Virus record (IMG/VR): IMGVR_UViG_3300048838_000199
Coordinates: 1 to 56,969 of that record
DNA: 56,969 nucleotides
Direction: 5' to 3' (one strand)
DNA from: a virus
Shown: piece after piece, positions 19,072-44,538 of the stretch
Layout: every line of letters begins with the position of its first letter
Position numbering within the stretch: the first letter of the stretch is position 1
Notes under the pieces: generated by a model
The model's database searches: none
What the model saw: only the letters and a program-made list of their open reading frames with translations
What the model was told of the DNA's origin: nothing
Made by a program: the position numbers and the translations under genes

Positions 19072-19100
19072 GTTATACCGCACCGTGCAGCACGGTGCGG
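19072..19100 (-). promoter_or_regulatory. Promoter with longest operator palindrome (site S1)
   Basis: -10 TATAAC at 19072-19077. Directly upstream lies a 23-bp near-perfect palindrome at 19078-19100, arms CCGCACCGTGC and GCACGGTGCGG around a central A/T. It is the longest member of the RTGCWGCAY family. The gene it serves starts 27 nt downstream, so this mRNA has a short leader. Confidence 0.6.
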
Positions 19101-20488: not shown

Positions 20489-20517
20489 ATTATACAGCAC
20501 TGTGCAGCACGATGCAA
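20489..20517 (-). promoter_or_regulatory. Leaderless promoter with operator (site S2)
   Basis: -35 TTGCAT (20512-20517), 17-bp spacer holding GTGCTGCAC, -10 TATAAT (20489-20494), then 7 nt to the ATG. The upstream TTTTGGTATTGCATCGTGC block recurs at 26590, 29145 and 31330. Confidence 0.7.
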
Positions 20518-22861: not shown

Positions 22862-23653
22862 TTAGAACTCCATCACGTTCTGCGCCAGTCGCTGCACGGC
22901 AGTCTGGCAGTGTTCGGGCCTGGCCTCGATCATGATGCACCGCCGGCCCTCGGCCTTACACGCCACCGCCGTGGCACCCGCGCCGCCAAACGGGTCGACA
23001 ATCAGGTCACCCTTGGACGACACCACACGCAGCAGCTTCTGCATCAGCGCGACAGGCTTGGGGCTTGGGTGGAACTCGTTGCTGTCCCTCGGGTTGTCCA
23101 GCACGTTGCCGGCTTCCTCGTGCTGCCATGGGCCTGGGTCTGGGGCCATCTTGATGATGTTGCCGGTGCCTCGGTCGTCTGGGTCGCACGTGCCCTGGCT
23201 GGCGTGCAGAATCAGCTCGTGCTGCGCTCTGAACCCGTTGCCCAGGCCCATGCTTAGCTTGTCCCACACCACCATGTTGTTCACGCGCAGGTTGCAGGTT
23301 TCGACTGCGCCCACCAGGTTCGGCCACTGCCGCCAGTCGATGAACGACAGCACGTTGCCGCTGTCCACCAGCGTCGGCCTGGCCAGCAGCAGCGTCTGCC
23401 GCATCAGCCAGATGAACCCTGTGGTGGTCATTTGGTCGTTCTCGATGGGCTTGCTGGCCCACCTCTGCCCGCGCAGCATGGCACCGCTGGTGGCCTTGGC
23501 CGCCTCAGTGCGCGCGCCCGACGCATAAGGTGGGTCTGTCACGATGGCCTGGACCTTGCCGGCCAGCTCGGGCACGATGGCTGCCAGCACCTGCAGCGTG
23601 TCGCCGCAGTAGATGGTGATGCCGGCAGCTTCGTCGTGGTGGTACGGGTTCAT
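22862..23653 (-). CDS. DNA methyltransferase (N6-adenine or N4-cytosine)
   Basis: 263 residues. The catalytic motif IV is AIVTDPPYASG (DPPY at residues 40-43) and the AdoMet-binding motif DPFGGAGATAVACKAEGR lies near residue 221, the order of class beta enzymes. VDSGNVLSFIDWRQW and NNMVVWDKLSMGLG fill the core. It probably protects phage DNA from host restriction. The start overlaps the stop of the preceding small gene (ATGA), and CATAAT lies 8 nt upstream. Confidence 0.85.
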   Translation of the reverse strand: MNPYHHDEAAGITIYCGDTLQVLAAIVPELAGKVQAIVTDPPYASGARTEAAKATSGAMLRGQRWASKPIENDQMTTTGFIWLMRQTLLLARPTLVDSGNVLSFIDWRQWPNLVGAVETCNLRVNNMVVWDKLSMGLGNGFRAQHELILHASQGTCDPDDRGTGNIIKMAPDPGPWQHEEAGNVLDNPRDSNEFHPSPKPVALMQKLLRVVSSKGDLIVDPFGGAGATAVACKAEGRRCIMIEARPEHCQTAVQRLAQNVMEF

Positions 23654-24337: not shown

Positions 24338-26116
24338 CTATTCTGTGGGGTTCTGGTCTGCCGGTGGCTGGTCCTGCGGATTCAGTGCCCTGTCGCGCGC
24401 TTGCGCAGCCGATGCCCTCAGCTGCTGGTTCGAGTCGTGGTTGGCCTTCAGCTGCGCCAGCTGCTCGGGGGTGACAGTCAGGCCGGCCCGCTGCATCAGC
24501 GTCGCCACCTGCTCGGGCAGCAGCTCGATGCCCAAGGCCGCCAGGTCGTCCAGGCCGACGGGGTTGCTGGGCTTTTCGCCAACGATGCGCTGGAACTCTG
24601 CGTCGGGGTCGTCCACACCCAGCAGCACCATGGCCGTCTCCCTGGCCCGCAGGCCCTTCTCGTACTGGGTGGTGATGGCTTCACGCTCGGCATCGGTCAG
24701 GGGGCCGCTGTTCACGTTCGCCTGGACGGTGGGCCGCAGGTTGTCGTACTTCGTCGCGCTGCCACTGAACAGCGCGCCGAGTTTGGCCAGCACAGCCAGC
24801 AGCCACCTGTACGCACCCTCGGCAGCCACCGTGGTGTCGCGCAGGCTTAACTCGAAGCCAGCGCGCAGGTGTACCCTCGATGCGCCCGATATGCTGCCAT
24901 CACCCTGGGCCAGCAGGTGCCCCTGCTTCGTTTCCATGTACATGGCCGCCCGATACTCGGCCAGCGTCGCCGTGTACGCCTCGGGGCTGCTCGGGTCCCT
25001 AAACCATGGCTTGGGTTCGGTGTATCCGGTGATCTTGCCGTCGTCGTCGCGCACCGGCTGGCCAGTCAGGTAAACCGTCGCGCCTGGGCCGCCTGGGTAC
25101 TTGTCCAGGGCCTTGAACACCTTGCCGCCCTTGCCGTCGTCCTCATACGTGCCCGGCAGCTGCGCGTTGGTGATGATGCGTTCCATAAATCCCGCGTTGG
25201 CGTTGTTGTTGCCCATGGCCGTCAGCGCGAAGTTCAGGCCGCGCTGCAGCTGCATCAGCTGGTCCGTCACGATCGGCTTGCCGTCCATGGTGTGCATCAG
25301 CAGCAGACCGCCCAGGTCCAGCTCTAACGGGGTCGACTCGGTCGTGCCCGTCCAGCTGCGCAGCACCGTCTTGGACTTCCTGCCGTTGCGCTCGGTGAAC
25401 TGCAGCTCCAGCCTGTCGACTGTCTGCTGGCCACCGCCCTGCTGGACCTTCTCAGACCACAGCACGTACGCACCCTGCGCCATGGTGTTCTTGTCGCACG
25501 CCGTGCCGCCCTTGTCGGGGTCCACCTTCTCGATGTACACCAGGTCCAGGGCCGCCTCCAGGTCCAGGCCGCTGGGGATGCCGCCCGATTCCAGCAGGCC
25601 GGGTGGAATGAACAGCCGCACGCTGCCCTTGCCCGTGGTGGCATAGTCGGCAGCTGCTTGCTGAATGAACTGGTGCGCGTTGCGCTTGTCTACCCAGTTC
25701 GTGATGGCCGCCTCGATCTCGGTAACCTCGGGGGCCTTGGCCGGCTTCTTGGCTTCCTTGCCAGGCTCTGGCACCTCGGGGCCTTCCTCGGCACCCTCTG
25801 GCGCGTTCAGGGGCACGAACTGCCAGCCAGGGGGCCGGCCCATCACCGCAGACACGTGCCGGTCCACAACCTCGGCCAGGACGTTGCTGCTGGTGAATGC
25901 CTTCTCTACCTTCAGCATGAACGCAGTAACATCTGCCGCCTTCGTGGTCAGTGGGTCAGGACTCGGCCCGCCCCAGCCAAGGCCGCCCTGCCAGTGGTCG
26001 CCCTGGTAGTACAGCAGGGCCTTCTTGCCCATGTCAGACAGCTGGCCGCCGGCTGCTGCCTTCACCGTGTTGATGTCCCACTGCCTGAATGGGGTGCCCG
26101 TCAGATACTGCGCCAT
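24338..26116 (-). CDS. Portal protein
   Basis: 592 residues from the ATG at 26116 (MAQYLTGTPFRQWD), which has CATAAT 6 nt upstream. Typical portal features are an N-terminal clip/wing part (YYQGDHWQGGLGWGGP), a VEKAFTSSNVLAEVVDRHVS stem, a DLVYIEKVDPD strand, and a C-terminal half with LRDTTVAAEGAYRWLLAVL and ITTQYEKGLRARETAM. It stands upstream of the MuF gene as in many phages, but four small or accessory genes intervene. It forms the dodecameric DNA gate. Confidence 0.8.
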   Translation of the reverse strand: MAQYLTGTPFRQWDINTVKAAAGGQLSDMGKKALLYYQGDHWQGGLGWGGPSPDPLTTKAADVTAFMLKVEKAFTSSNVLAEVVDRHVSAVMGRPPGWQFVPLNAPEGAEEGPEVPEPGKEAKKPAKAPEVTEIEAAITNWVDKRNAHQFIQQAAADYATTGKGSVRLFIPPGLLESGGIPSGLDLEAALDLVYIEKVDPDKGGTACDKNTMAQGAYVLWSEKVQQGGGQQTVDRLELQFTERNGRKSKTVLRSWTGTTESTPLELDLGGLLLMHTMDGKPIVTDQLMQLQRGLNFALTAMGNNNANAGFMERIITNAQLPGTYEDDGKGGKVFKALDKYPGGPGATVYLTGQPVRDDDGKITGYTEPKPWFRDPSSPEAYTATLAEYRAAMYMETKQGHLLAQGDGSISGASRVHLRAGFELSLRDTTVAAEGAYRWLLAVLAKLGALFSGSATKYDNLRPTVQANVNSGPLTDAEREAITTQYEKGLRARETAMVLLGVDDPDAEFQRIVGEKPSNPVGLDDLAALGIELLPEQVATLMQRAGLTVTPEQLAQLKANHDSNQQLRASAAQARDRALNPQDQPPADQNPTE

Positions 26117-26122
26117 GCACCG

Positions 26123-26128
26123 ATTATG
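26123..26128 (-). promoter_or_regulatory. -10 box for portal gene (leaderless type)
   Basis: CATAAT, 6 nt before the ATG at 26116. The block from ATG through the -10 is identical to the one before the DUF2460 tail gene (2180-2198). Confidence 0.5.
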
Positions 26129-26186
26129 GCGCAACAAAACGGGGCAGCCAGTCCATGCCAGCTGCCCCTGATTCGATGCCTGGCCG

Positions 26187-26555
26187 TTAGGCCATCGGGG
26201 GTACGTCGTATTCCAGCATGAACTCGCGCATGATGCGCGCCACCTGCGACAGCAGCCCGCTGATGGTGGTGGCTGCCGTGTGGCCCAGTTCCTCGATGGC
26301 CGTGGCCAGGACGTTGGCGCGCTGGTCCAGGTTGTTGCCGCCGGCCTTCAGGATGTCGGCATCCTGCCAGCTCTGGCCCTTGCCGCCCCAGGCCACGCCG
26401 AAGGTCGCACGGTCGTCGCCCATGACCTTGAAGTACACGCTGCCGCTTTTGCCTTGCTCGGTGATGAACGCCAGGGGCAGCTGCTGAATGGCGCGCGTCA
26501 GCTGCTCGGCTGTCAGGTCGTTGGTGATGATTCGGGTGGCTGTTGTGGTAACCAT
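26187..26555 (-). CDS. Hypothetical protein with leaderless start
   Basis: 122 residues from the ATG at 26555. It begins MVTTTATRIITNDL, like the zinc-finger gene at 20481. The rest is alpha/beta (LPLAFITEQGKSGSVYFKV, then NVLATAIEELGHTAATTI). It is a single-gene unit with its own promoter and an upstream terminator. No family recognised. Confidence 0.65.
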   Translation of the reverse strand: MVTTTATRIITNDLTAEQLTRAIQQLPLAFITEQGKSGSVYFKVMGDDRATFGVAWGGKGQSWQDADILKAGGNNLDQRANVLATAIEELGHTAATTISGLLSQVARIMREFMLEYDVPPMA

Positions 26556-26561
26556 GCCAGT

Positions 26562-26590
26562 GTTATACCACACCGTGCAGCACGATGCAA
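26562..26590 (-). promoter_or_regulatory. Leaderless promoter with operator (site S4)
   Basis: TTGCAT (26585-26590), 17-bp spacer with CGTGCTGCACGGTG, TATAAC (26562-26567), 6 nt to the ATG at 26555. It follows directly on a terminator. Confidence 0.7.
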
Positions 26591-26603
26591 TACCAAAACA
26601 CAG

Positions 26604-26641
26604 AAAAGGCAGGGGGCTGCCACAACACAGCACACCCTGCC
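26604..26641 (-). terminator. Intrinsic terminator
   Basis: Arms GGCAGGG/CCCTGCC, with an alternative inner hairpin GGCAG/CTGCC, followed on the minus strand by TTTTCTG. It ends the 31295-26655 group and precedes the S4 promoter. Confidence 0.7.
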
Positions 26642-26654
26642 CGGATAGAAGATT

Positions 26655-27017
26655 TTACTGCAGGCCGTGGACTTCCACGACGTCGTACTGGCCACGCAGG
26701 AACATCTGCCGATCGCGCTGGCAGCCGTCGCACACCAGGACGGTGTGGCACCTGGCACCGATGTATGTGGCTGCGTCGCTGTACGCTACCAGCTCGGTCG
26801 TGGCGTCCTCGATCTGGCACACCTCGCAGCAGTCGGGTACCTTGGGTGCGCACTGGCACTGCAGCCAGCACAGGCCGGCCAGGGCACCCGCGCCCGCCAG
26901 GTACCACCACCCTGCTGGGTCGTTGGGTTCAGTGGCGAAGGCCGCCAACATCAGCACCAACGCGCCAGCGAACGACAGCACGGCAGCCCGTGCGAACCAG
27001 ATGCGCGCGCTGTTCAT
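26655..27017 (-). CDS. Small membrane protein with cysteine-rich C-terminal domain
   Basis: 120 residues. Two N-terminal membrane segments: AAVLSFAGALVLMLAAFA (about 11-28) and WWYLAGAGALAGLCWL (about 37-52). A Cys-rich part follows (CQCAPKVPDCCEVCQIED, later CHTVLVCDGCQRD), a likely zinc site on one side of the membrane. The ATG overlaps the previous stop (ATGA). Function unknown; an inner-membrane exclusion role is one possibility. Confidence 0.65.
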   Translation of the reverse strand: MNSARIWFARAAVLSFAGALVLMLAAFATEPNDPAGWWYLAGAGALAGLCWLQCQCAPKVPDCCEVCQIEDATTELVAYSDAATYIGARCHTVLVCDGCQRDRQMFLRGQYDVVEVHGLQ

Positions 27018-27454
27018 CGGTCGCCACCAGGCCCTTCCAGAACGCCGGCCACAGCCGCCTCTTCTGGGTCGTAAGGCTTCACCACCAGGCTGGTGCCTTC
27101 CAGCAGCTCGGGCCGGCCCTGCACAGCCGCGAACAGCGCAGCGCGTGCGTCCTCGATGAACTCAAACGCAGCCCACTCGGTAGTCAGCCACCCCTCTGCG
27201 TTCATGCTTACACCGTGTGGGTGGGAATCCACCAGCACCAGGAACTGGGCCAGCGCGATGGCCATGGCCGAGTTCTGCGCGTCGTGCTTCTGCTTCCTGG
27301 CCAGCGTGGGGCCAGGCTGCCCGGTGCCGCTGCACTGCTGGCTGCCCGACTGGTGGGGCATCATCTTGCCGGTGGCGTCCACCGTGGCCTTGCGATGGCA
27401 CACGGGGCACCGTTCCTGCTGGCCTGGTATCTGCCGCATGTATGGCTGCCTCAC
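27014..27454 (-). CDS. Zinc-ribbon hypothetical protein
   Basis: 146 residues from a GTG at 27454 overlapping the GHKL gene stop (GTGA). N-terminal site QERCPVCHRKATVD with MMPHQ and QQCSG resembles a CxxC-H-C finger. The C-terminal half (AMAIALAQFLVLVDSHP, then WAAFEFIEDARAALFAAV) is helical. It is coupled to the GHKL-HExxH gene and may work with it, which is inference only. Confidence 0.6.
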   Translation of the reverse strand: MRQPYMRQIPGQQERCPVCHRKATVDATGKMMPHQSGSQQCSGTGQPGPTLARKQKHDAQNSAMAIALAQFLVLVDSHPHGVSMNAEGWLTTEWAAFEFIEDARAALFAAVQGRPELLEGTSLVVKPYDPEEAAVAGVLEGPGGDR

Positions 27455-28716
27455 TTGGACACCCCCAACACCGCCATGCCCAGCCGCCCGGCAATACCGT
27501 CCAGGGCATTCTCGAACGACAGGCTGGCATCGTGCGCGCCACTCATGAAGTGGGCCAGCTCGTGCAGGTACGTGCGCACCAGTTCCTGCTTGTTGCCTTC
27601 CAGGAACAGCTGGGCCGACAGCCACAGCACCATGTCGTCCAGGGCAGCCAGGCCCTTCAGTTCATCGGCCCGCACCTCGAATACCCGCACCGTCACCTTG
27701 GGGGCTGCGATGATCTTGTCCAGCTTGCGCAGCTCGGCCAGCTGCTTCCTGTACTTGCCGATCGGCAGGGCCTTCAGGTCGTACTGCGTGCTGGACACCG
27801 TGGCCGACGACGGCACGCCGGCCTTCAGCAGCGCACCGCGCAGGTCCCTGCTGTCCACTACCACCGGGGTGTATCCCTTGCGCGCTGCCACCTGGTCCAC
27901 TTCGCCGCCCATGGCCACCACCGCACGGTCGCCGTGCTTGTCCTCGAATGCCTGGGCCAGCGATTCCTTCAGCTGGTTGTCGACGTGGTAATCGCCGCAT
28001 GCGTCGGCCTCGATCGTTTCAGCGTGGCACAGCAGCTGCCTGGCGATGTCCACCGTGGCGTTGTCGCGCAGCCACTTGCCGATGGCCCAACCGACTTCAA
28101 ACTCTGACACCGTGGCCCTGTCCCTGTTCAGCGTCACACCTTCGCCGCTGATGTTCCAGTCCCAGATGGCCGTGCCCTTCATGGTCGTGATGTACACACC
28201 CTGAATGTAGACGCGCATGCCCTCTGCCTCTGCCCTCGGCATCGGCCCGATGGGGCACGCCGGCAGGATCCTGCCTTCCAACGCCCTGGCCACGTCCTGC
28301 ATGACCACGCTGGCCGTGAACCCTTCGCCGTTCTGTTCCTTGGTCACCTTGGCGTGCAGTGTTTCGGTGCCCATCACCTTCCTGAACAGGAACTCGATGG
28401 TGCTGTCTGGTGTGCGCAGCACGATCGTGCCGCCGGCACGGGTGGCTGCCAGTGCTGCCATCTTCGCGCCTTCACCGAACTGGCCGATGGTGGGGCCGCC
28501 TGGCCGCTTGGTGCCGTGGCCGACGATCAGCAGCTCGGCCAGCTCGGGCACCGTGTTCGTGCTGATGGTGATGGTGTCGCTGCCCTCGGCCTCGATGCGC
28601 ATGCCCTCGGGGTCTGCGTCGATGGCGTTGCATGCCAGTTCTCGTGCCACTTCCCACGCGCCCCAGTTGGGCACGTACGTCGGGGCCAGGTTCAGGTTGA
28701 TGTACTTGGGTTTCAT
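27451..28716 (-). CDS. GHKL ATPase with C-terminal HExxH metallopeptidase-like motif
   Basis: 421 residues from the ATG at 28716, with CGAGGAAA 8 nt upstream. The Bergerat ATP-binding fold is seen as WEVARELACNAIDAD (N-box E-N-x-x-D, about 22-35) and GHGTKRPGGPTIGQFGEG (G-boxes, about 66-84), then GTIVLRTPDSTIEFLF. The last 60 residues hold YLHELAHFMSGAHDAS (HExxH near 385), a zinc-protease motif. No transducer domain of topoisomerase type is obvious. It is two genes downstream of a Topo VI-A-like protein. ATP-driven substrate remodelling or proteolysis is possible. Confidence 0.75.
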   Translation of the reverse strand: MKPKYINLNLAPTYVPNWGAWEVARELACNAIDADPEGMRIEAEGSDTITISTNTVPELAELLIVGHGTKRPGGPTIGQFGEGAKMAALAATRAGGTIVLRTPDSTIEFLFRKVMGTETLHAKVTKEQNGEGFTASVVMQDVARALEGRILPACPIGPMPRAEAEGMRVYIQGVYITTMKGTAIWDWNISGEGVTLNRDRATVSEFEVGWAIGKWLRDNATVDIARQLLCHAETIEADACGDYHVDNQLKESLAQAFEDKHGDRAVVAMGGEVDQVAARKGYTPVVVDSRDLRGALLKAGVPSSATVSSTQYDLKALPIGKYRKQLAELRKLDKIIAAPKVTVRVFEVRADELKGLAALDDMVLWLSAQLFLEGNKQELVRTYLHELAHFMSGAHDASLSFENALDGIAGRLGMAVLGVSK

Positions 28717-28758
28717 GTTGTGGTTTCCTCGGTTCTGCGTCGTGGGCCGCGCCCCCAT

Positions 28759-29109
28759 TTACAGGGACACCGCCAGGCCGGTCACGGACTCGATCGTGCT
28801 GCGCAGCTGGTCTGCATACAGCCCGTCCAGTTCCTCGATGATGCGCACGTCCATGCCGCGAACCTTTAGGAAGGTCATGGTGTACGTGTCGCTGGGGTTC
28901 AGCGTCACCTTGATGATGCTTACCCGTCGGCAGCCCTTGATTCTGAAGCGAAGGAACGGGCCAGCCCCTTCCTTGGTGTCCAGCCCATACACGAACTCGT
29001 GCGCGCCGATCATGGCGCAGGCTTGTCTGCCGATCTGCTGCACTCTGATGGTTTCAGCGATCTGCTGCAGCTCAAAATCCGAATAGTGGCGTGGTGTTGT
29101 GGTTGCCAT
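28759..29109 (-). CDS. Conserved small phage protein, unknown
   Basis: 116 residues from the ATG at 29109 (MATTTPRHYSD), with TATAAC 6 nt upstream. The pattern ACAMIGAHEFVYG, then FLRFRIKG, then VSIIKVTLNPSDTYTMTFLK and GLYADQLRSTIESVTGL belongs to a small family common in phages and plasmids, with no known function. It lies between the TOPRIM and GHKL genes but has its own promoter. Confidence 0.75.
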   Translation of the reverse strand: MATTTPRHYSDFELQQIAETIRVQQIGRQACAMIGAHEFVYGLDTKEGAGPFLRFRIKGCRRVSIIKVTLNPSDTYTMTFLKVRGMDVRIIEELDGLYADQLRSTIESVTGLAVSL

Positions 29110-29115
29110 GTCAGT

Positions 29116-29145
29116 GTTATACCACAGCGTGCTGCATGATGCAAT
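29116..29145 (-). promoter_or_regulatory. Leaderless promoter with operator (site S5)
   Basis: TTGCAT, 17-bp spacer CATGCAGCACGCTGTGG, TATAAC (29116-29121), 6 nt to the ATG at 29109. Confidence 0.7.
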
Positions 29146-29154
29146 ACCAAAACG

Positions 29155-29188
29155 CAAAATAATCAGGGGCCGGTTCACCCAGCCCCTG
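29155..29188 (-). terminator. Intrinsic terminator
   Basis: Arms CAGGGGC/GCCCCTG (29164-29170 and 29182-29188), followed on the minus strand by ATTATTTTGCGTTTT. It lies after the TOPRIM gene and before promoter S5. Confidence 0.75.
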
Positions 29189-29199
29189 CGTCGTCGGCC

Positions 29200-30285
29200 T
29201 TAGTCGTCGGCCTTGTTGGGGTCGTCGTACACGTGGGCACAGTTCTGGCATTCCAGCTGGCCGGCCTCGGTGTACTGGACGCGCCGGCTGCCGCAGCTCG
29301 GGCACCCTGGCAGGTCCAACATGCCCACGAAGTCGCTGTCGTGCTTCATCAGGTCCACAATCGCGCCTATGCGCCCACGGTGCTGGTCTTGCTCGGCCAC
29401 GGCCTCGTGCCATAGGTCCATGTCCAGCTCGCGCTTGATTCCATCCTCGGCCAGCTGCGCCAGTACCCTCGGTTCCAGCGCGTCCAGCTCCCAGGATTCG
29501 CGCCCGTACCGCCTGATGTAGCCGCCGGCCCTGCTGTCGGTGATCTTGGCCGGGTTGGGTGGTGGGGCATACTGCTGAATCTGCGCCATGGTCAGTGCCA
29601 TGTGCCGCACGGTCAGCTTGTCGTTGCCGTCGTCGTCGGTTTCGTTGTAGCTGTACACCTTCTGGTCGCCCTTGTCGTATTCGCCCAGCTCGGTGAACAG
29701 CAGCAGCCGGTCCTCCACGTCGCGCACCATGTCGATGCCGCTGGGGTCGTGGTCGCCAAAGTACAGAATCACCACGCGCTTGTCGCTGTCCAGGGCATCA
29801 CGCAGCCGCTGGCCGTTCTCGTACATGGCCGACGCGCTGGAATACCCACGGTTGGAAGTGAAGGGCACGTCCCACCGCCTGCAGACGGGTTCCAAGACAC
29901 CCTCCAGGGCCGCCTTTTCCACCATCACCTCGACATGCACCGGCTGCCTGTCCCACAGTCGAATGCGGAACTGCTTGGCGCATGCCGCCACGATGTCTGC
30001 CGGGCTGTCCCAATGGGGGTTCTCGATCGTTTCACGGTTTCGGTCCTCGATCAGGTCCCAGTCGACCAGGCCGGCCAACCTCGCATCGGTCAGCAGGCTG
30101 CCGATGTTCTTGTACGACGTTTCCTTGTTGGGCAGGCCGTGGTGCGCCACCAGCTGGTAATAAACCTGCCGCAGGGATAGCCGGTACCCCTGCGCTGCAT
30201 AGCTGGTGCATATCTCGATGATCTTGCGCACCCACTTCAGGCTGTCAGGCTTGAAGTCCTTCTCGATGTAACAGTGCTTTGCCAT
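29200..30285 (-). CDS. Spo11/Topo VI-A-like protein with TOPRIM domain and zinc ribbon
   Basis: 361 residues. The N-terminal winged-helix part has LSLRQVYYQLV (Arg39, Tyr42, Tyr43), the R-x-x-Y-Y arrangement in which Spo11 and Topo VI-A carry the DNA-cleaving tyrosine. The TOPRIM domain has HVEVMVEKAALEGVL (Glu123) and VVILYFGDHDPSGIDM (Asp178, Asp180), the metal-binding E and DxD. The last 35 residues form a zinc ribbon (CPSCGSRRV, then CQNCAHVY). Small Topo VI-A homologues are known on mobile elements. It starts right after the stop of the previous gene. Activity would be DNA cleavage or relaxation. Confidence 0.7.
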   Translation of the reverse strand: MAKHCYIEKDFKPDSLKWVRKIIEICTSYAAQGYRLSLRQVYYQLVAHHGLPNKETSYKNIGSLLTDARLAGLVDWDLIEDRNRETIENPHWDSPADIVAACAKQFRIRLWDRQPVHVEVMVEKAALEGVLEPVCRRWDVPFTSNRGYSSASAMYENGQRLRDALDSDKRVVILYFGDHDPSGIDMVRDVEDRLLLFTELGEYDKGDQKVYSYNETDDDGNDKLTVRHMALTMAQIQQYAPPPNPAKITDSRAGGYIRRYGRESWELDALEPRVLAQLAEDGIKRELDMDLWHEAVAEQDQHRGRIGAIVDLMKHDSDFVGMLDLPGCPSCGSRRVQYTEAGQLECQNCAHVYDDPNKADD

Positions 30286-30801
30286 TTACTTCACTTCCTC
30301 GCAGTCTGCGCACGCTTCGTGCTGCTGCTTGCCATGGACGCACACGCCGCAGGCCGCTGGGTCCTCGTCTGCTGGCTTGGTCGTCGTTGCCTCGGTCACC
30401 AGGGCCTCGTATCCCTTGCTGCGCTCGGTGCTGGCCAGCTTCGTGGCCAGGTCGTGCCTGCCGCACCAGCCGGCCACCTTCCAAGGCCCTGCTGGGCAGC
30501 CATCGGCCCCTAAGTCGACAAGGGCCTGCAGCTTGTCCACCTGCTCGGTGTAGTGCGCCACCAGCTTGCCGTACGTCCAGCCCTTGGCCGATGACATGGC
30601 ATCAGGGCCGTGGTCGCGCACGTCGGCCTGGTTCATGGCCAGCCGCTCTGCGTTGTACTTCAGGTCCCTGGCTGCCTCTGCGTGGACCTTCTGGCCAGTC
30701 TTGCGTTCCCAGACTGCGTGCGTGTACGTCCTGTTCTCGCTGGTGCGCATGGCCACCTCACCCGTTGCCGGGTGGGTGGTGTAGAACTTCGTGCGTGCCA
30801 T
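30286..30801 (-). CDS. Hypothetical protein with C-terminal zinc finger
   Basis: 171 residues from the ATG at 30801 overlapping the previous stop (TAATG). N-terminal ARTKFYTTHPATGEVAMRTS, a helical middle (LVAHYTEQVDKLQALVDLG), WCGRHDLATKLA, and a C-terminal CGVCVHGKQQHEACADC cluster. It is directly upstream of the Topo VI-A-like gene, with touching codons, so both come from one mRNA. Confidence 0.65.
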   Translation of the reverse strand: MARTKFYTTHPATGEVAMRTSENRTYTHAVWERKTGQKVHAEAARDLKYNAERLAMNQADVRDHGPDAMSSAKGWTYGKLVAHYTEQVDKLQALVDLGADGCPAGPWKVAGWCGRHDLATKLASTERSKGYEALVTEATTTKPADEDPAACGVCVHGKQQHEACADCEEVK

Positions 30802-31295
30802 TACTTGGCACCTTCCAGCCAGGTCACCCTGTACAGGCCGTCCTTCTTGAATCTTCGGCACAGCACCCGCATCAGCGTGCTGGGGTTGTCGAATGCGACG
30901 CTGAACCACTCCATGCGGCTGGACCTGTGCGCCAGGTCATTCAATCGCGCCTGGAACTTGCTGGCCGTGTGAATGCTCAGGAAGTACCGGCTGTGGAATC
31001 CTTCGGCACCCTTGTCGCGCTTCGTGTGAAGGTGGCCGAGTTTGATGGAATCAGCCACCACCTGCACCGTGTTGATGCGTGGAATGGTCAGCTGGTACCC
31101 GTCGGCACAGGTCACTGTGAAGTGGCCAGGGTCGCAGCCTGCGCGCATCCATGCCGGTGCGCTCGTGTCCTCGATCGTGGCCACCTGCATGGCTTGGCCG
31201 TGGTGCATGAACACCATGCCCGGCTGCAGGTCGCGTGCGCTGATGATGCTGGTGCCGCCAGCTGCGGGGTTCTGGGTTGGGGTTGTGGTTCCCAT
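30801..31295 (-). CDS. Hypothetical protein, leaderless first gene of the TOPRIM unit
   Basis: 164 residues from the ATG at 31295 (MGTTTPTQNPAAGG), 7 nt after TATAAT. ISARDLQPGMVFMHHGQAMQ suggests a small SH3-like barrel. The C-terminal part (FQARLNDLAHRSSRMEW, then MRVLCRRFKKDG) is basic and could bind nucleic acid. It is the first gene of the 31295-29200 operon with the zinc-finger and TOPRIM genes. Confidence 0.65.
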   Translation of the reverse strand: MGTTTPTQNPAAGGTSIISARDLQPGMVFMHHGQAMQVATIEDTSAPAWMRAGCDPGHFTVTCADGYQLTIPRINTVQVVADSIKLGHLHTKRDKGAEGFHSRYFLSIHTASKFQARLNDLAHRSSRMEWFSVAFDNPSTLMRVLCRRFKKDGLYRVTWLEGAK

Positions 31296-31302
31296 GCACT
31301 GC

Positions 31303-31330
31303 ATTATACACAACATGCTGCACGATGCAA
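31303..31330 (-). promoter_or_regulatory. Leaderless promoter with operator (site S6)
   Basis: TTGCAT, 16-bp spacer CGTGCAGCATGTTGTG, TATAAT (31303-31308), 7 nt to the ATG at 31295. The upstream TTTTGGTATTGCATCGTGC block matches S2 and S4. Confidence 0.7.
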
Positions 31331-31341
31331 TACCAAAACAG

Positions 31342-31371
31342 CAAAATGGGCAGCATTTTACTGCCGCCCAT
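31342..31371 (-). terminator. Intrinsic terminator after endolysin gene
   Basis: Arms ATGGGCGGCAG/CTGCCCAT (small bulge) with an AT-rich loop, followed on the minus strand by TTTGCTGTTTT. Confidence 0.7.
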
Positions 31372-31396
31372 TCCTGCCGATTCCTTGCCTGGTCGT

Positions 31397-31945
31397 TTAA
31401 TCCAGGTCCACGAACCTGCTAAAGAACCCAGGGTCGCGCACGCGCTCGTACAGCCCGCCGCCGTCGCTCTGGCTTCCTGCCTTGCCCGCGCTGGTGTTGC
31501 CCTCGTACGTGCGCAGCTTGCCGCCGGCCAGGACCTGCGCCACGATGCCGATGTGCCCGGTGCCGTCCTCACGAACGAACAGGCACAGCCGGCCACGCGC
31601 TGGGGTGTTGCTCAGTCGGTTGTTGCTGCTGGCCCAGCTGCGCCACTGCGCCACGCGCGCGCTGTTCGGGTCGCCGGGGCCGATCGTAACACCGGCCACT
31701 TCACAAGCGAACTCGATGCTGGCCGCGCACCAGTTGTACTGCATGTTCCCACTCAGGCCGGTGGACGTCATGATGGCCGACACCCAGGGGCCTCGGTTGT
31801 TGCCGCCGACTTCGCGCACCTTGATGTCGTTGGCCAGGACTGACATGGCCAGCAGGACGCGCTCGCCTGCCTTCTTGGTCGCATAGTCGGGGTATCGCTG
31901 GCTCAGGATGGCCAGCACCTTCTGCTTCGCTTCTTGGGTCGTCAT
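31397..31945 (-). CDS. CHAP-type endolysin (peptidoglycan amidase/endopeptidase)
   Basis: 182 residues with AGGTGA just upstream of the ATG. The catalytic cysteine is in YNWCAASIEF (Cys73), the histidine in DGTGHIGIVAQV (about 131) and the polar third residue in YEGNTSAG (about 148), the C-H-N order of CHAP enzymes. There is no signal peptide or clear cell-wall binding domain. It lies 13 kb from the holin, in a nucleotide-metabolism neighbourhood rather than a lysis cassette. Confidence 0.75.
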   Translation of the reverse strand: MTTQEAKQKVLAILSQRYPDYATKKAGERVLLAMSVLANDIKVREVGGNNRGPWVSAIMTSTGLSGNMQYNWCAASIEFACEVAGVTIGPGDPNSARVAQWRSWASSNNRLSNTPARGRLCLFVREDGTGHIGIVAQVLAGGKLRTYEGNTSAGKAGSQSDGGGLYERVRDPGFFSRFVDLD

Positions 31946-31970
31946 GGTTTCACCTCGCGCCTAGTTTAGT

Positions 31971-32375
31971 TCATTCGCGCCGGTCACGCTCGTAAATAGC
32001 CTGCAGCCTTGCCTTGGCTTCAGCCTGCTCTGGCGTCAGTGCGTCGCCGGCCACCTCGAAACACTGCAGCACGAACAGGGCACTGATGGCCTGGCTGTAC
32101 TCGGTGTTCTCTCGGTCACGATGCAGCAGCCTGCGCTTCAGGTCGTCCACCTCTGCCTGCAGTCCTTCCACCGTCTTAGTTTCGGGGTCGCGCTGCTGAA
32201 TCTCTCGATTCAGATACCAGGCCGCCTTCTTTAGGTCCTCGGTGCCCGCCTTTTCCTTTTCGCGCAGCACGTACTTCACCACGTTGCCCAGGCAGAAGCC
32301 AAGGCCGAACTGCTCGATGATGCGCATTACCGTGTCGCCCTTGTAATGCCCTGGGTTCACTGGGTCGTGTCCCAT
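31971..32375 (-). CDS. DUF3310 family protein
   Basis: 134 residues. The signature is clear: NPGHYKG, then IEQFGLGFCLGNVVKYVLR and GTEDLKKAAWYLNREIQ, as in small phage proteins often annotated as DUF3310 or nucleotide-kinase-like. A coiled-coil C-terminal half follows (GLQAEVDDLKRRLLHRDREN). The ATG overlaps the ThyX stop (TGATG), which fits a role in nucleotide pools. Confidence 0.8.
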   Translation of the reverse strand: MGHDPVNPGHYKGDTVMRIIEQFGLGFCLGNVVKYVLREKEKAGTEDLKKAAWYLNREIQQRDPETKTVEGLQAEVDDLKRRLLHRDRENTEYSQAISALFVLQCFEVAGDALTPEQAEAKARLQAIYERDRRE

Positions 32376-33256
32376 CAGCGTGCCACCACCACGTTCTCGT
32401 TGGCGAAGTCCTTGCGATACTGCCGCCAGCCGGCAAAGTTGCCCCAGTATTCGCGCTCGGTGTCTGGTGTGGCCACGTGTTCAAACGGTGACCAGTGGCC
32501 AGACTTGGCCAACCTGTCGTGCAGCTCGATGTCGGCCAGCACGTCGCGCTTGCCTTCGTGGGTCAGGTAGGACACCCTGGCGCACCGGCCCACCGACACC
32601 TTGGTGACGTACTCGGGCAGCACCATCTCCATGTGGCTGCAGCTGATGCCTTCACCACCGTGGTATGCCGATGAATCCAGGTATGCCTGCACGTCCTGGA
32701 TGTCCTGGTCCTCGATCAGGGGCCAGTGCCACCAGCCTGCCGGCACTTCCTTCGGCTGGCTTGCTTCCATGGCTTCGCGCGCCATGGTCGCCACGGCCTG
32801 GAACGATGGCTCGGCCTCGGGACTGCAGCGCAGGTGCCAGACGTTGGCCCAGTCGGTCGCGCTTACGATGATCGTGCAGAACATCCAAGGCTCCAGCAGC
32901 CGGTTCACGTACTGCTTGTGGATGTTCAGCGTGTGCATCAGCCTGGCCTTGTTTACCGCGTCGTCCCGGCCTTCCAGCCACAGCGTGCGCGCCAGCTCTG
33001 CCTGGTCGTCGTCCAGAACGTCGCCGGCCTGCATGCCCTTCTGGTTCTGCCTGAACTCGGGCACGAACGGGTCGTCCACCACGCGCTGTATCAGCTTCTC
33101 GGTGGGGATGGCCCGGCTGCTGGCCGCGTTCCTGCTAAGCATTCGGTGGGTGTTCACCTCGGCCAGAATGACGCGCGGGAATGTCCATTCCATCGTGGTC
33201 AGTCGCTGGCCCTGTGGACTGATGGAATCACACAGGACGCGCGCGCTGATGGGCAT
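32375..33256 (-). CDS. thyX: Flavin-dependent thymidylate synthase
   Basis: 293 residues. The ThyX motif region is FPRVILAEVNTHRMLSRNAA with SSRAIP (His37-Arg38 to Arg48), and the second conserved block is QYVNRLLEPWMF then TDWANVWHLRCSPEAEPS. It converts dUMP to dTMP with methylenetetrahydrofolate and FAD. The start overlaps the lipoprotein stop (TAATG). With the MazG-like and DUF3310 genes it suggests phage control of thymidine nucleotides. The overall length is longer than typical ThyX by a central insert. Confidence 0.85.
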   Translation of the reverse strand: MPISARVLCDSISPQGQRLTTMEWTFPRVILAEVNTHRMLSRNAASSRAIPTEKLIQRVVDDPFVPEFRQNQKGMQAGDVLDDDQAELARTLWLEGRDDAVNKARLMHTLNIHKQYVNRLLEPWMFCTIIVSATDWANVWHLRCSPEAEPSFQAVATMAREAMEASQPKEVPAGWWHWPLIEDQDIQDVQAYLDSSAYHGGEGISCSHMEMVLPEYVTKVSVGRCARVSYLTHEGKRDVLADIELHDRLAKSGHWSPFEHVATPDTEREYWGNFAGWRQYRKDFANENVVVAR

Positions 33257-33678
33257 TACTTCTGCAGCTCCAGATTCAGCTGCTGCGTCTTGCCGTTGGC
33301 CGACGCATAGACCGTGCCCTCGATCTTGGGGCCAGCGCGCAGGAACAGCTGGCCGGTCACCGTGGCATCCGTGCTGCCGATCTTCAGGGTGCCGACGACG
33401 TTGCCGCTGCCGGACACCGTGCCGCTGCCGGTGAAGTCGGTGCCGGTTCGGTTGTTGTGGCCGGTGGCCGTGAACTTACCGCTGCCCTCGATGGCCATGG
33501 TGATGGGGCCGCTGCCGTTGACAGGTATCTGGTCCTGGAACGTGCCAGACCAGCTGCCGGCATAGGGGCTGCTGCCCCCACCCCCACCACCGCCCGAGCC
33601 AAGGTTGGCACCACCGCCACCGCAGCCGAAGGCAAGAACGACGAAAACGCCCAACAGGGCCATGCGCATGTGTTTCAT
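33256..33678 (-). CDS. Predicted lipoprotein
   Basis: 140 residues. The N-terminus MKHMRMALLGVFVVLAFGC is a lipoprotein signal with lipobox LAFGC; the Cys is followed by a Gly-rich stretch. The mature part is a small beta-rich domain with Thr/Gly-rich strands (SGKFTATGHNNRTGTDF, then SGNVVGTLKIGSTDATV). TATAAT lies 8 nt before the ATG. Phage lipoproteins often block superinfection or act in lysis; the sequence alone does not decide. It heads the transcript with ThyX and DUF3310. Confidence 0.75.
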   Translation of the reverse strand: MKHMRMALLGVFVVLAFGCGGGGANLGSGGGGGGGSSPYAGSWSGTFQDQIPVNGSGPITMAIEGSGKFTATGHNNRTGTDFTGSGTVSGSGNVVGTLKIGSTDATVTGQLFLRAGPKIEGTVYASANGKTQQLNLELQK

Positions 33679-33686
33679 ACAGCCGC

Positions 33687-33715
33687 ATTATAACACAGCA
33701 CCATGCAGCACGCAT
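33687..33715 (-). promoter_or_regulatory. Leaderless promoter with operator (site S7)
   Basis: TATAAT (33687-33692), 8 nt before the ATG at 33678. The spacer carries GCACCATGCAGCACGC. No TTGCAT -35 box. Confidence 0.6.
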
Positions 33716-33761
33716 ACAGCACAACGGGCCGCCGTTTCCAGCAGCCCGTCGACTTGGTTGC

Positions 33762-33866
33762 CTATCGCTTGGCTGGGTGCCGCAGCTGGCCCACGATCAG
33801 CAACCACACCCTGCAGAACCTGAACCGTGGCCGGCCTTGGTGTCTGCTCGGCTGCCGGTGCTTCAC
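33762..33866 (-). CDS. Possible 34-residue basic peptide
   Basis: A GTG at 33866 overlaps the stop of the previous frame (GTGA), the usual coupling in this genome, and opens 34 codons: KHRQPSRHQGRPRFRF then VWLLIVGQLRHPAKR. Very basic with a short hydrophobic stretch. Evidence is only the overlap and the lack of another use for the segment. Confidence 0.3.
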   Translation of the reverse strand: MKHRQPSRHQGRPRFRFCRVWLLIVGQLRHPAKR

Positions 33867-38055: not shown

Positions 38056-38084
38056 AGTATAGCGCATCATGCAGCACGGTGTGG
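38056..38084 (-). promoter_or_regulatory. Leaderless promoter with operator (site S8)
   Basis: -10 TATACT (38056-38061), 8 nt before the ATG at 38047. The spacer holds CGTGCTGCATGATGC. The -35 position reads CCACAC instead of TTGCAT. Confidence 0.55.
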
Positions 38085-44512: not shown

Positions 44513-44538
44513 ATTATAGCACCGTGCTGCACGGTGCA
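44513..44538 (-). promoter_or_regulatory. Promoter with perfect-type operator (site S9)
   Basis: TATAAT at 44513-44518 preceded by GCACCGTGCTGCACGGTGC, a 19-bp near-perfect palindrome (44519-44537) of the RTGCWGCAY family. Confidence 0.65.

Follow-up and report, generated by a model that had tools for sequence, protein, structure and literature searches.

A phage-borne Mini-A protein of the Topo VI-A/Spo11 kind without a conserved ATPase partner

In Topo VI, the tyrosine works together with the TOPRIM domain of the partner subunit (PMC13040014). Truncated Top6A homologues from archaeoviruses and bacteriophages are known as Mini-A (PMC7614492), which is also referred to as an ancient topo VI-A/Spo11 homologue of viruses (PMC11302465). 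Mini-A was described by Takahashi et al. 2020, cited in PMC7614492, PMC8185306, PMC8084294 and PMC11302465, and a figure legend gives Pseudomonas phage NP1 as an example (PMC7614492). The passages on Mini-A in two of these papers state that its function is unknown (PMC8084294) and that Mini-A from archaea is uncharacterised (PMC8185306), and the titles and abstract openings of newer literature offered nothing on Mini-A function.

Here we describe a member of this family from a virus record of 56,969 bases, the whole of which was analysed and is referred to as the window. The window encodes large terminase, head-morphogenesis and tail genes, an O-like replication protein and an exonuclease. The same phage carries, all on the minus strand, a DNA methyltransferase (22862-23653), the thymidylate synthase ThyX (32375-33256) and a CHAP endolysin (31397-31945). 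The open reading frame of interest starts with an ATG at 30285 (Table 1) and matches PHROG 6247, named "DNA topoisomerase", over residues 2-317. A tblastn search of 50,697 phage records found homologues in 76, none reaching 60% identity and with phages of Pseudomonas and Salmonella among them; of 72,556 plasmid records, 41 have one. The homologue in Pseudomonas phage NP1 is 44.2% identical over residues 3-311 (E 6e-74). Single-sequence searches of viral contigs gave no match, while a viral profile scan recovered at least 569 relatives among 599 candidate stretches, and the scan of prokaryote genome contigs recovered 206 among 212 stretches, including two with archaeal titles (L263, L266). Judged by its sequence, the protein is of no new kind but belongs to Mini-A, a phage family that is already on record. 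The first-pass annotation of this DNA had noted that small Topo VI-A homologues of open function occur on mobile elements. That description fits Mini-A, whose function is given as unknown in the review passages cited above, with the correction that the window protein itself belongs to this family.

Table 1. Coordinates of the Mini-A gene, its predicted parts and the surrounding features in the window
Feature	Position	Strand	Basis
GHKL ATPase with C-terminal HELAH metalloprotease-like motif; judged to lie outside the Mini-A system	27451..28716	-	phrog_6077, E 2.7e-37; fold
Second operator (putative), before the separate GHKL-containing unit	29124..29142	.	repeat and palindrome counts
Terminator-like hairpin just after Mini-A	29164..29188	-	weak
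Mini-A (Topo VI-A/Spo11-like) gene, 361 aa	29200..30285	-	PHROG 6247, E 2e-106; 76 phage records
Predicted C-terminal zinc ribbon, CxxC-x14-CxxC, C328-C349	29239..29304	-	sequence; Pfam zinc-ribbon matches under cut-off
TOPRIM domain, residues 116-286, with E123 and D178-H-D180	29428..29940	-	VIA-align to Topo VI-A, MksG, JetD, Spo11 and small TOPRIM proteins
N-terminal helical, winged-helix-like part, residues 1-110, with R39-x-x-Y42-Y43	29956..30285	-	model helices 13-31, 38-49, 55-70; alignment to Tyr region of archaeal Topo VI-A
Tyr43 codon, predicted catalytic tyrosine	30157..30159	-	81/81 rows of alignment A2
Operon gene 2, 171 aa	30286..30801	-	TAATG overlap with gene 1; abuts Mini-A ATG
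Operon gene 1, 164 aa	30801..31295	-	no PHROG match; ATG just after -10-like box
Putative promoter/operator: TATAAT, 16 nt, TTGCAT, with palindrome 31310-31328 between the boxes	31303..31330	-	sequence; not called by sigma-70 scan
Terminator-like hairpin upstream of operon	31343..31374	-	hairpin scan

The residue positions and length given in the first-pass annotation (Tyr42/Tyr43, Glu123 and D178-H-D180 in a chain of 361 residues) were all found as described. The protein carries R39-Q-V-Y42-Y43, with the tyrosine pair encoded at 30157-30162, followed by E123 and G177-D178-H179-D180. In an alignment of 14 rows (A1), R39, Y42, Y43, E123, D178, H179 and D180 are all invariant. The larger alignment of 81 rows (A2) keeps R39, Y43, E123 and D178-H-D180 in 81/81 and lets Y42 vary; three viral members read RQLFYQ, where the first tyrosine has become Phe. 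Four divergent plasmid relatives carry RQVMY or RQVFY and retain only the arginine and the second tyrosine of the motif (4/4 read). As Y42 varies (Phe in viruses, Met or Phe in plasmids) while Y43 stays, Tyr43 is the constrained tyrosine. The same plasmid subfamily (L327, L328 and L330 from Streptomyces, L329 from Rubrobacter) has GDFD for GDHD in three of its four members. R-x-x-[YF]-Y stands in frame in 176 of the 177 homologues collected, window included, and in another frame in the one exception (L011); residue counts cover 174 of these 177, a set chosen by the motif itself, with L011 (split frames) and L069 and L264 (RQLYYR) dropped. Most of 60 archaeal Topo VI-A sequences have R-x-x-Y-Y at the equivalent place, and seven have RDVFY. 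Gene structure varies at individual loci. In Roseobacter phage RDJL Phi 1 (L011, 5923-6905), Mini-A lies in two frames with an opposite-strand gene annotated over its first part, reflecting either a real break or a sequencing error, and in Clavibacter phage 33 (L014, 5998-6987) it has a direct duplication of about 37 TOPRIM residues that includes the catalytic Glu.

We then compared the family with Topo VI-A by profile and by fold. Alignment with hhalign of 174 Mini-A sequences against the 60 archaeal Topo VI-A sequences, which represent two archaeal groups and include two without the motif pattern used, placed R-x-x-Y-Y, E123, GDHD and the next motif in register and in order. The score was 29.8 (P 0.0046), compared with 14.4 for reversed Topo VI-A and 19.5 for an unrelated GHKL alignment; because the probability assigned by hhalign is only 7.6%, this is support and not proof. 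Sequence searches of the PDB gave no match with either the single protein (phmmer) or the A2 profile (hmmsearch). Pfam matches within A2 were weak, with TP6A_N in 6 of 81 members (best E 0.041), TOP6A-Spo11_Toprim in 2, DUF2399 in 8 (best E 0.006) and JetD_C in 2.

The structure model of the window protein (mean pLDDT 89.3) has three helices at its N-terminus and a TOPRIM-like fold, and fold matches cover mainly residues 82-315. Foldseek ranks Topo VI A of M. mazei first among its PDB matches (E 0.018, TM 0.25), and the global superposition is poor. In VIA-align, the TOPRIM half matches the Topo VI-A structure 1d3y with Z 9.6 over 143 residues at 3.6 Å, followed by 9o0g (9.0), MksG 8b7f (9.0), JetD 7til (8.8), 2zbk (8.5) and Spo11 8urq (7.5), where rows less than 1 Z apart are tied. 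Small TOPRIM proteins reach Z 8.2-8.3 and two designed Rossmann proteins 9.6-9.8. Because designed proteins score as high, the fold result indicates a TOPRIM-like core and does not by itself indicate Topo VI identity. A search of BFVD yielded one short model (E 2.6e-4). The best matches could have fallen to OLD-type or primase TOPRIM families, the outcome named beforehand as contrary to a Topo VI-A assignment; instead, Topo VI A takes first place in Foldseek, and 1d3y leads the natural proteins in VIA-align, with primase rows ranking under Topo VI-A and MksG, in a ranking where a missing row excludes nothing. Homologues, profile comparison and fold search agree with the initial reading of a Spo11/Topo VI-A-like protein with R-x-x-Y-Y and TOPRIM, which was largely right.

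The C-terminus carries the cysteine pattern C328-x2-C331-x14-C346-x2-C349, consistent with the zinc ribbon proposed in the first-pass annotation. Pfam zinc-ribbon models reach this segment only under their own cut-offs (best E 0.0055), and the structure model places a beta-hairpin there. A pattern search found no such ribbon in the other homologues from viral, phage and genome loci, nor does it occur in the four plasmid members read. The predicted ribbon is unusual within Mini-A, among the homologues examined. Directly downstream of Mini-A, two other loci have a short cysteine-rich, zinc-finger-like open reading frame (L022 after 3896, L200 after 5891), possibly a split counterpart of the ribbon that is fused in the window protein.

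Mini-A is the last of three abutting or overlapping genes. The first has no PHROG match, and a longer open reading frame of the second has weak PHROG matches (E 2.3e-5 and 1.5e-4). A palindromic repeat and a TATAAT lie about 7 nt from the first ATG. Across 26000-33800 the sigma-70 scan called 0 promoters by its own criteria, since the hexamer at the -35-like position is only TTGCAT. Direct repeats of 75 nt precede three units, namely the Mini-A operon, the GHKL-containing unit and a third unit. The operator palindrome is enriched in the window, with 22 matches against 6.75 in shuffles and 20 against 5.55 in Markov sequences. Palindromes around GCACCGTGCAGCACGGTGC stand beside TATA-like boxes at 19080-19098, 20497-20515, 26570-26588, 29124-29142, 31310-31328, 38064-38082 and 44519-44537, which suggests that one phage regulator may control many leaderless promoters. 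We therefore take the operator-controlled leaderless operon with two other genes, as described earlier, to be inferred from sequence, with the direct repeats and both palindrome counts in support of the operator. Terminator-like hairpins in the region show no clear excess (7 found, 5.6 in shuffles).

We sought a partner for Mini-A, beginning with the neighbouring GHKL gene. The model of its product (pLDDT 93.1) resembles the ATPase regions of Hsp90/TRAP1, GyrB/ParE and topoisomerase II with Z 10-11, and the match extends into the part after the ATPase. Its C-terminal metalloprotease-like segment matches WLM at E 0.0039, below the cut-off, and HExxH was found by simple pattern in 22 of 86 GHKL relatives scanned. 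Distantly related proteins of Exiguobacterium and Moorella phages (L100, L105) show the same fusion of GHKL with HExxH. A GHKL relative occurs in 0/49 other Mini-A records, whether sought by family profile or with the protein itself, and Mini-A occurs in 0/49 records with GHKL relatives, including the two nearest (L106 and L107, 38 and 36% identity). There are 96 other viral and phage Mini-A loci and 86 GHKL loci, and these comparisons cover 49 of each; because many of the records are fragments, absence in single records means little, yet the pattern as a whole is clear. With co-occurrence lacking in both directions among these records, the GHKL protein is rejected as the B subunit of the family. 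The link between the two proteins implied in the first-pass annotation is unsupported by co-occurrence. The GHKL gene belongs to a separate, similarly regulated unit. The Topo VI-B transducer (Topo-VIb_trans) was found in 0/50 records, window included. A search with HATPase_c_3 likewise gave 0/50, yet it missed the GHKL gene of the window itself and is given no weight.

Nor did the wider neighbourhood reveal a partner. Open reading frames of at least 80 aa around 176 Mini-A loci were compared all against all by BLAST. The six largest clusters comprise 176, 139, 57, 42, 24 and 21 loci, and we read them as Mini-A itself and overlapping frames. Outside these, the most widespread family is present at 12 loci, followed by families at 10, 9 and 9 and six at 8, under thresholds (E 1e-6, 50% coverage) that could split a diverged partner. 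These lesser families, recognised by eye, are presumably primase, helicases, recombinase, SSB and polymerase. Annotated neighbours of Mini-A include a Sak4-like annealing protein, a Cas4-domain exonuclease, ligase and primase in PaMx25, a Cas4 exonuclease and a recombinase in Fizzles, ThyX in Delta and a polymerase in RDJL1. No dedicated ATPase partner is conserved with the Mini-A family, and the chain itself contains no GHKL part in its 361-residue sequence, Pfam matches or model, leaving a small A-like protein without a fused ATPase.

Taken together, we think it probable that Mini-A is a partnerless, dimeric Tyr/TOPRIM DNA-cleaving enzyme of a replication-recombination module, corresponding to a type IIB topoisomerase reduced to its cutting half, with the ATPase half absent. 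The protein would most likely act as a homodimer, with Tyr43 from one subunit attacking DNA at the TOPRIM metal site of the other (E123, D178, D180), giving tyrosine-linked and possibly staggered breaks. Since the family is not accompanied by an ATPase partner of its own, cutting of DNA, and perhaps resealing, most likely proceeds with no strand passage driven by ATP. The phage's replication-recombination module would be the setting for this activity, and the zinc ribbon would help to hold DNA or a partner protein.

The fold comparison also accommodates a TOPRIM nuclease that resembles MksG/JetD and depends on metal. Its tyrosine would be structural, water would cut the strands and no covalent intermediate would form. 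MksG and JetD tie with Topo VI-A in VIA-align, and the weak DUF2399 and JetD_C matches described above point the same way. However, neither R39 nor Tyr43 varies in A2, both line up with the segment of Topo VI-A around its catalytic Tyr, and Tyr43 persists even in the divergent plasmid relatives that have lost Tyr42; we consider such a nuclease unlikely, though deserving of serious consideration. A further proposal is that the protein binds DNA without cutting by itself, for example as a regulator or as a decoy subunit acting on a host enzyme. For some members from actinophages, DNA binding protein is the sole annotation, and the C-terminal zinc ribbon would suit this role, but the complete set of catalytic residues is strictly conserved, and we regard a non-cutting role as quite unlikely.

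Two further proposals assign a part to the GHKL neighbour. In this phage the GHKL/metalloprotease protein could serve as a B-like subunit, the pair forming a split type IIB topoisomerase or a break-making machine. Both genes follow copies of the same repeat, and the modelled GHKL protein resembles the ATPase regions of topoisomerase II, GyrB and Hsp90 together with the part after the ATPase. This arrangement is nevertheless very unlikely given the separate transcription unit, the lack of co-occurrence in either set of 49 records and the lack of a Topo-VIb transducer match in all 50. We can also imagine a self-contained break machine, in which Mini-A would make tyrosine-linked double-strand breaks, the co-regulated GHKL part would act as a gate and the WLM/SprT-like protease would trim the covalent adduct so that recombination starts; this is extremely unlikely.

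The TOPRIM fold of Mini-A matches the MksG/JetD nucleases of MksBEFG/Wadjet equally well, but SMC-type partner genes are not named beside Mini-A in the annotated neighbourhoods read, and MksG and JetD are not known to carry the R-x-x-Y-Y tyrosine. Topo VIII has its own ATPase part, which the window Mini-A lacks. The two are alike in that Topo VIII is described as having a type IIB A-like cutting part carried on mobile elements (PMC7614492). With Topo VI A and Spo11, the window protein shares the TOPRIM fold and the succession of R-x-x-Y-Y, the TOPRIM Glu and DxD; in contrast, its N-terminus is shorter, the sequence similarity is weak and the window has no Topo VI-B transducer match. The closest known system is Mini-A: the window protein is directly homologous to the member in phage NP1 and, like Mini-A in general, is a truncated Topo VI-A homologue that is carried by a phage and lacks a B subunit, while differing from most relatives in the C-terminal zinc ribbon and in an insert near residues 199-222. 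The family is common, with the viral relatives counted above, and a small partnerless Spo11 relative could make the cutting chemistry testable. The member described here adds a zinc ribbon to Mini-A and leaves the overall picture of the family unchanged.
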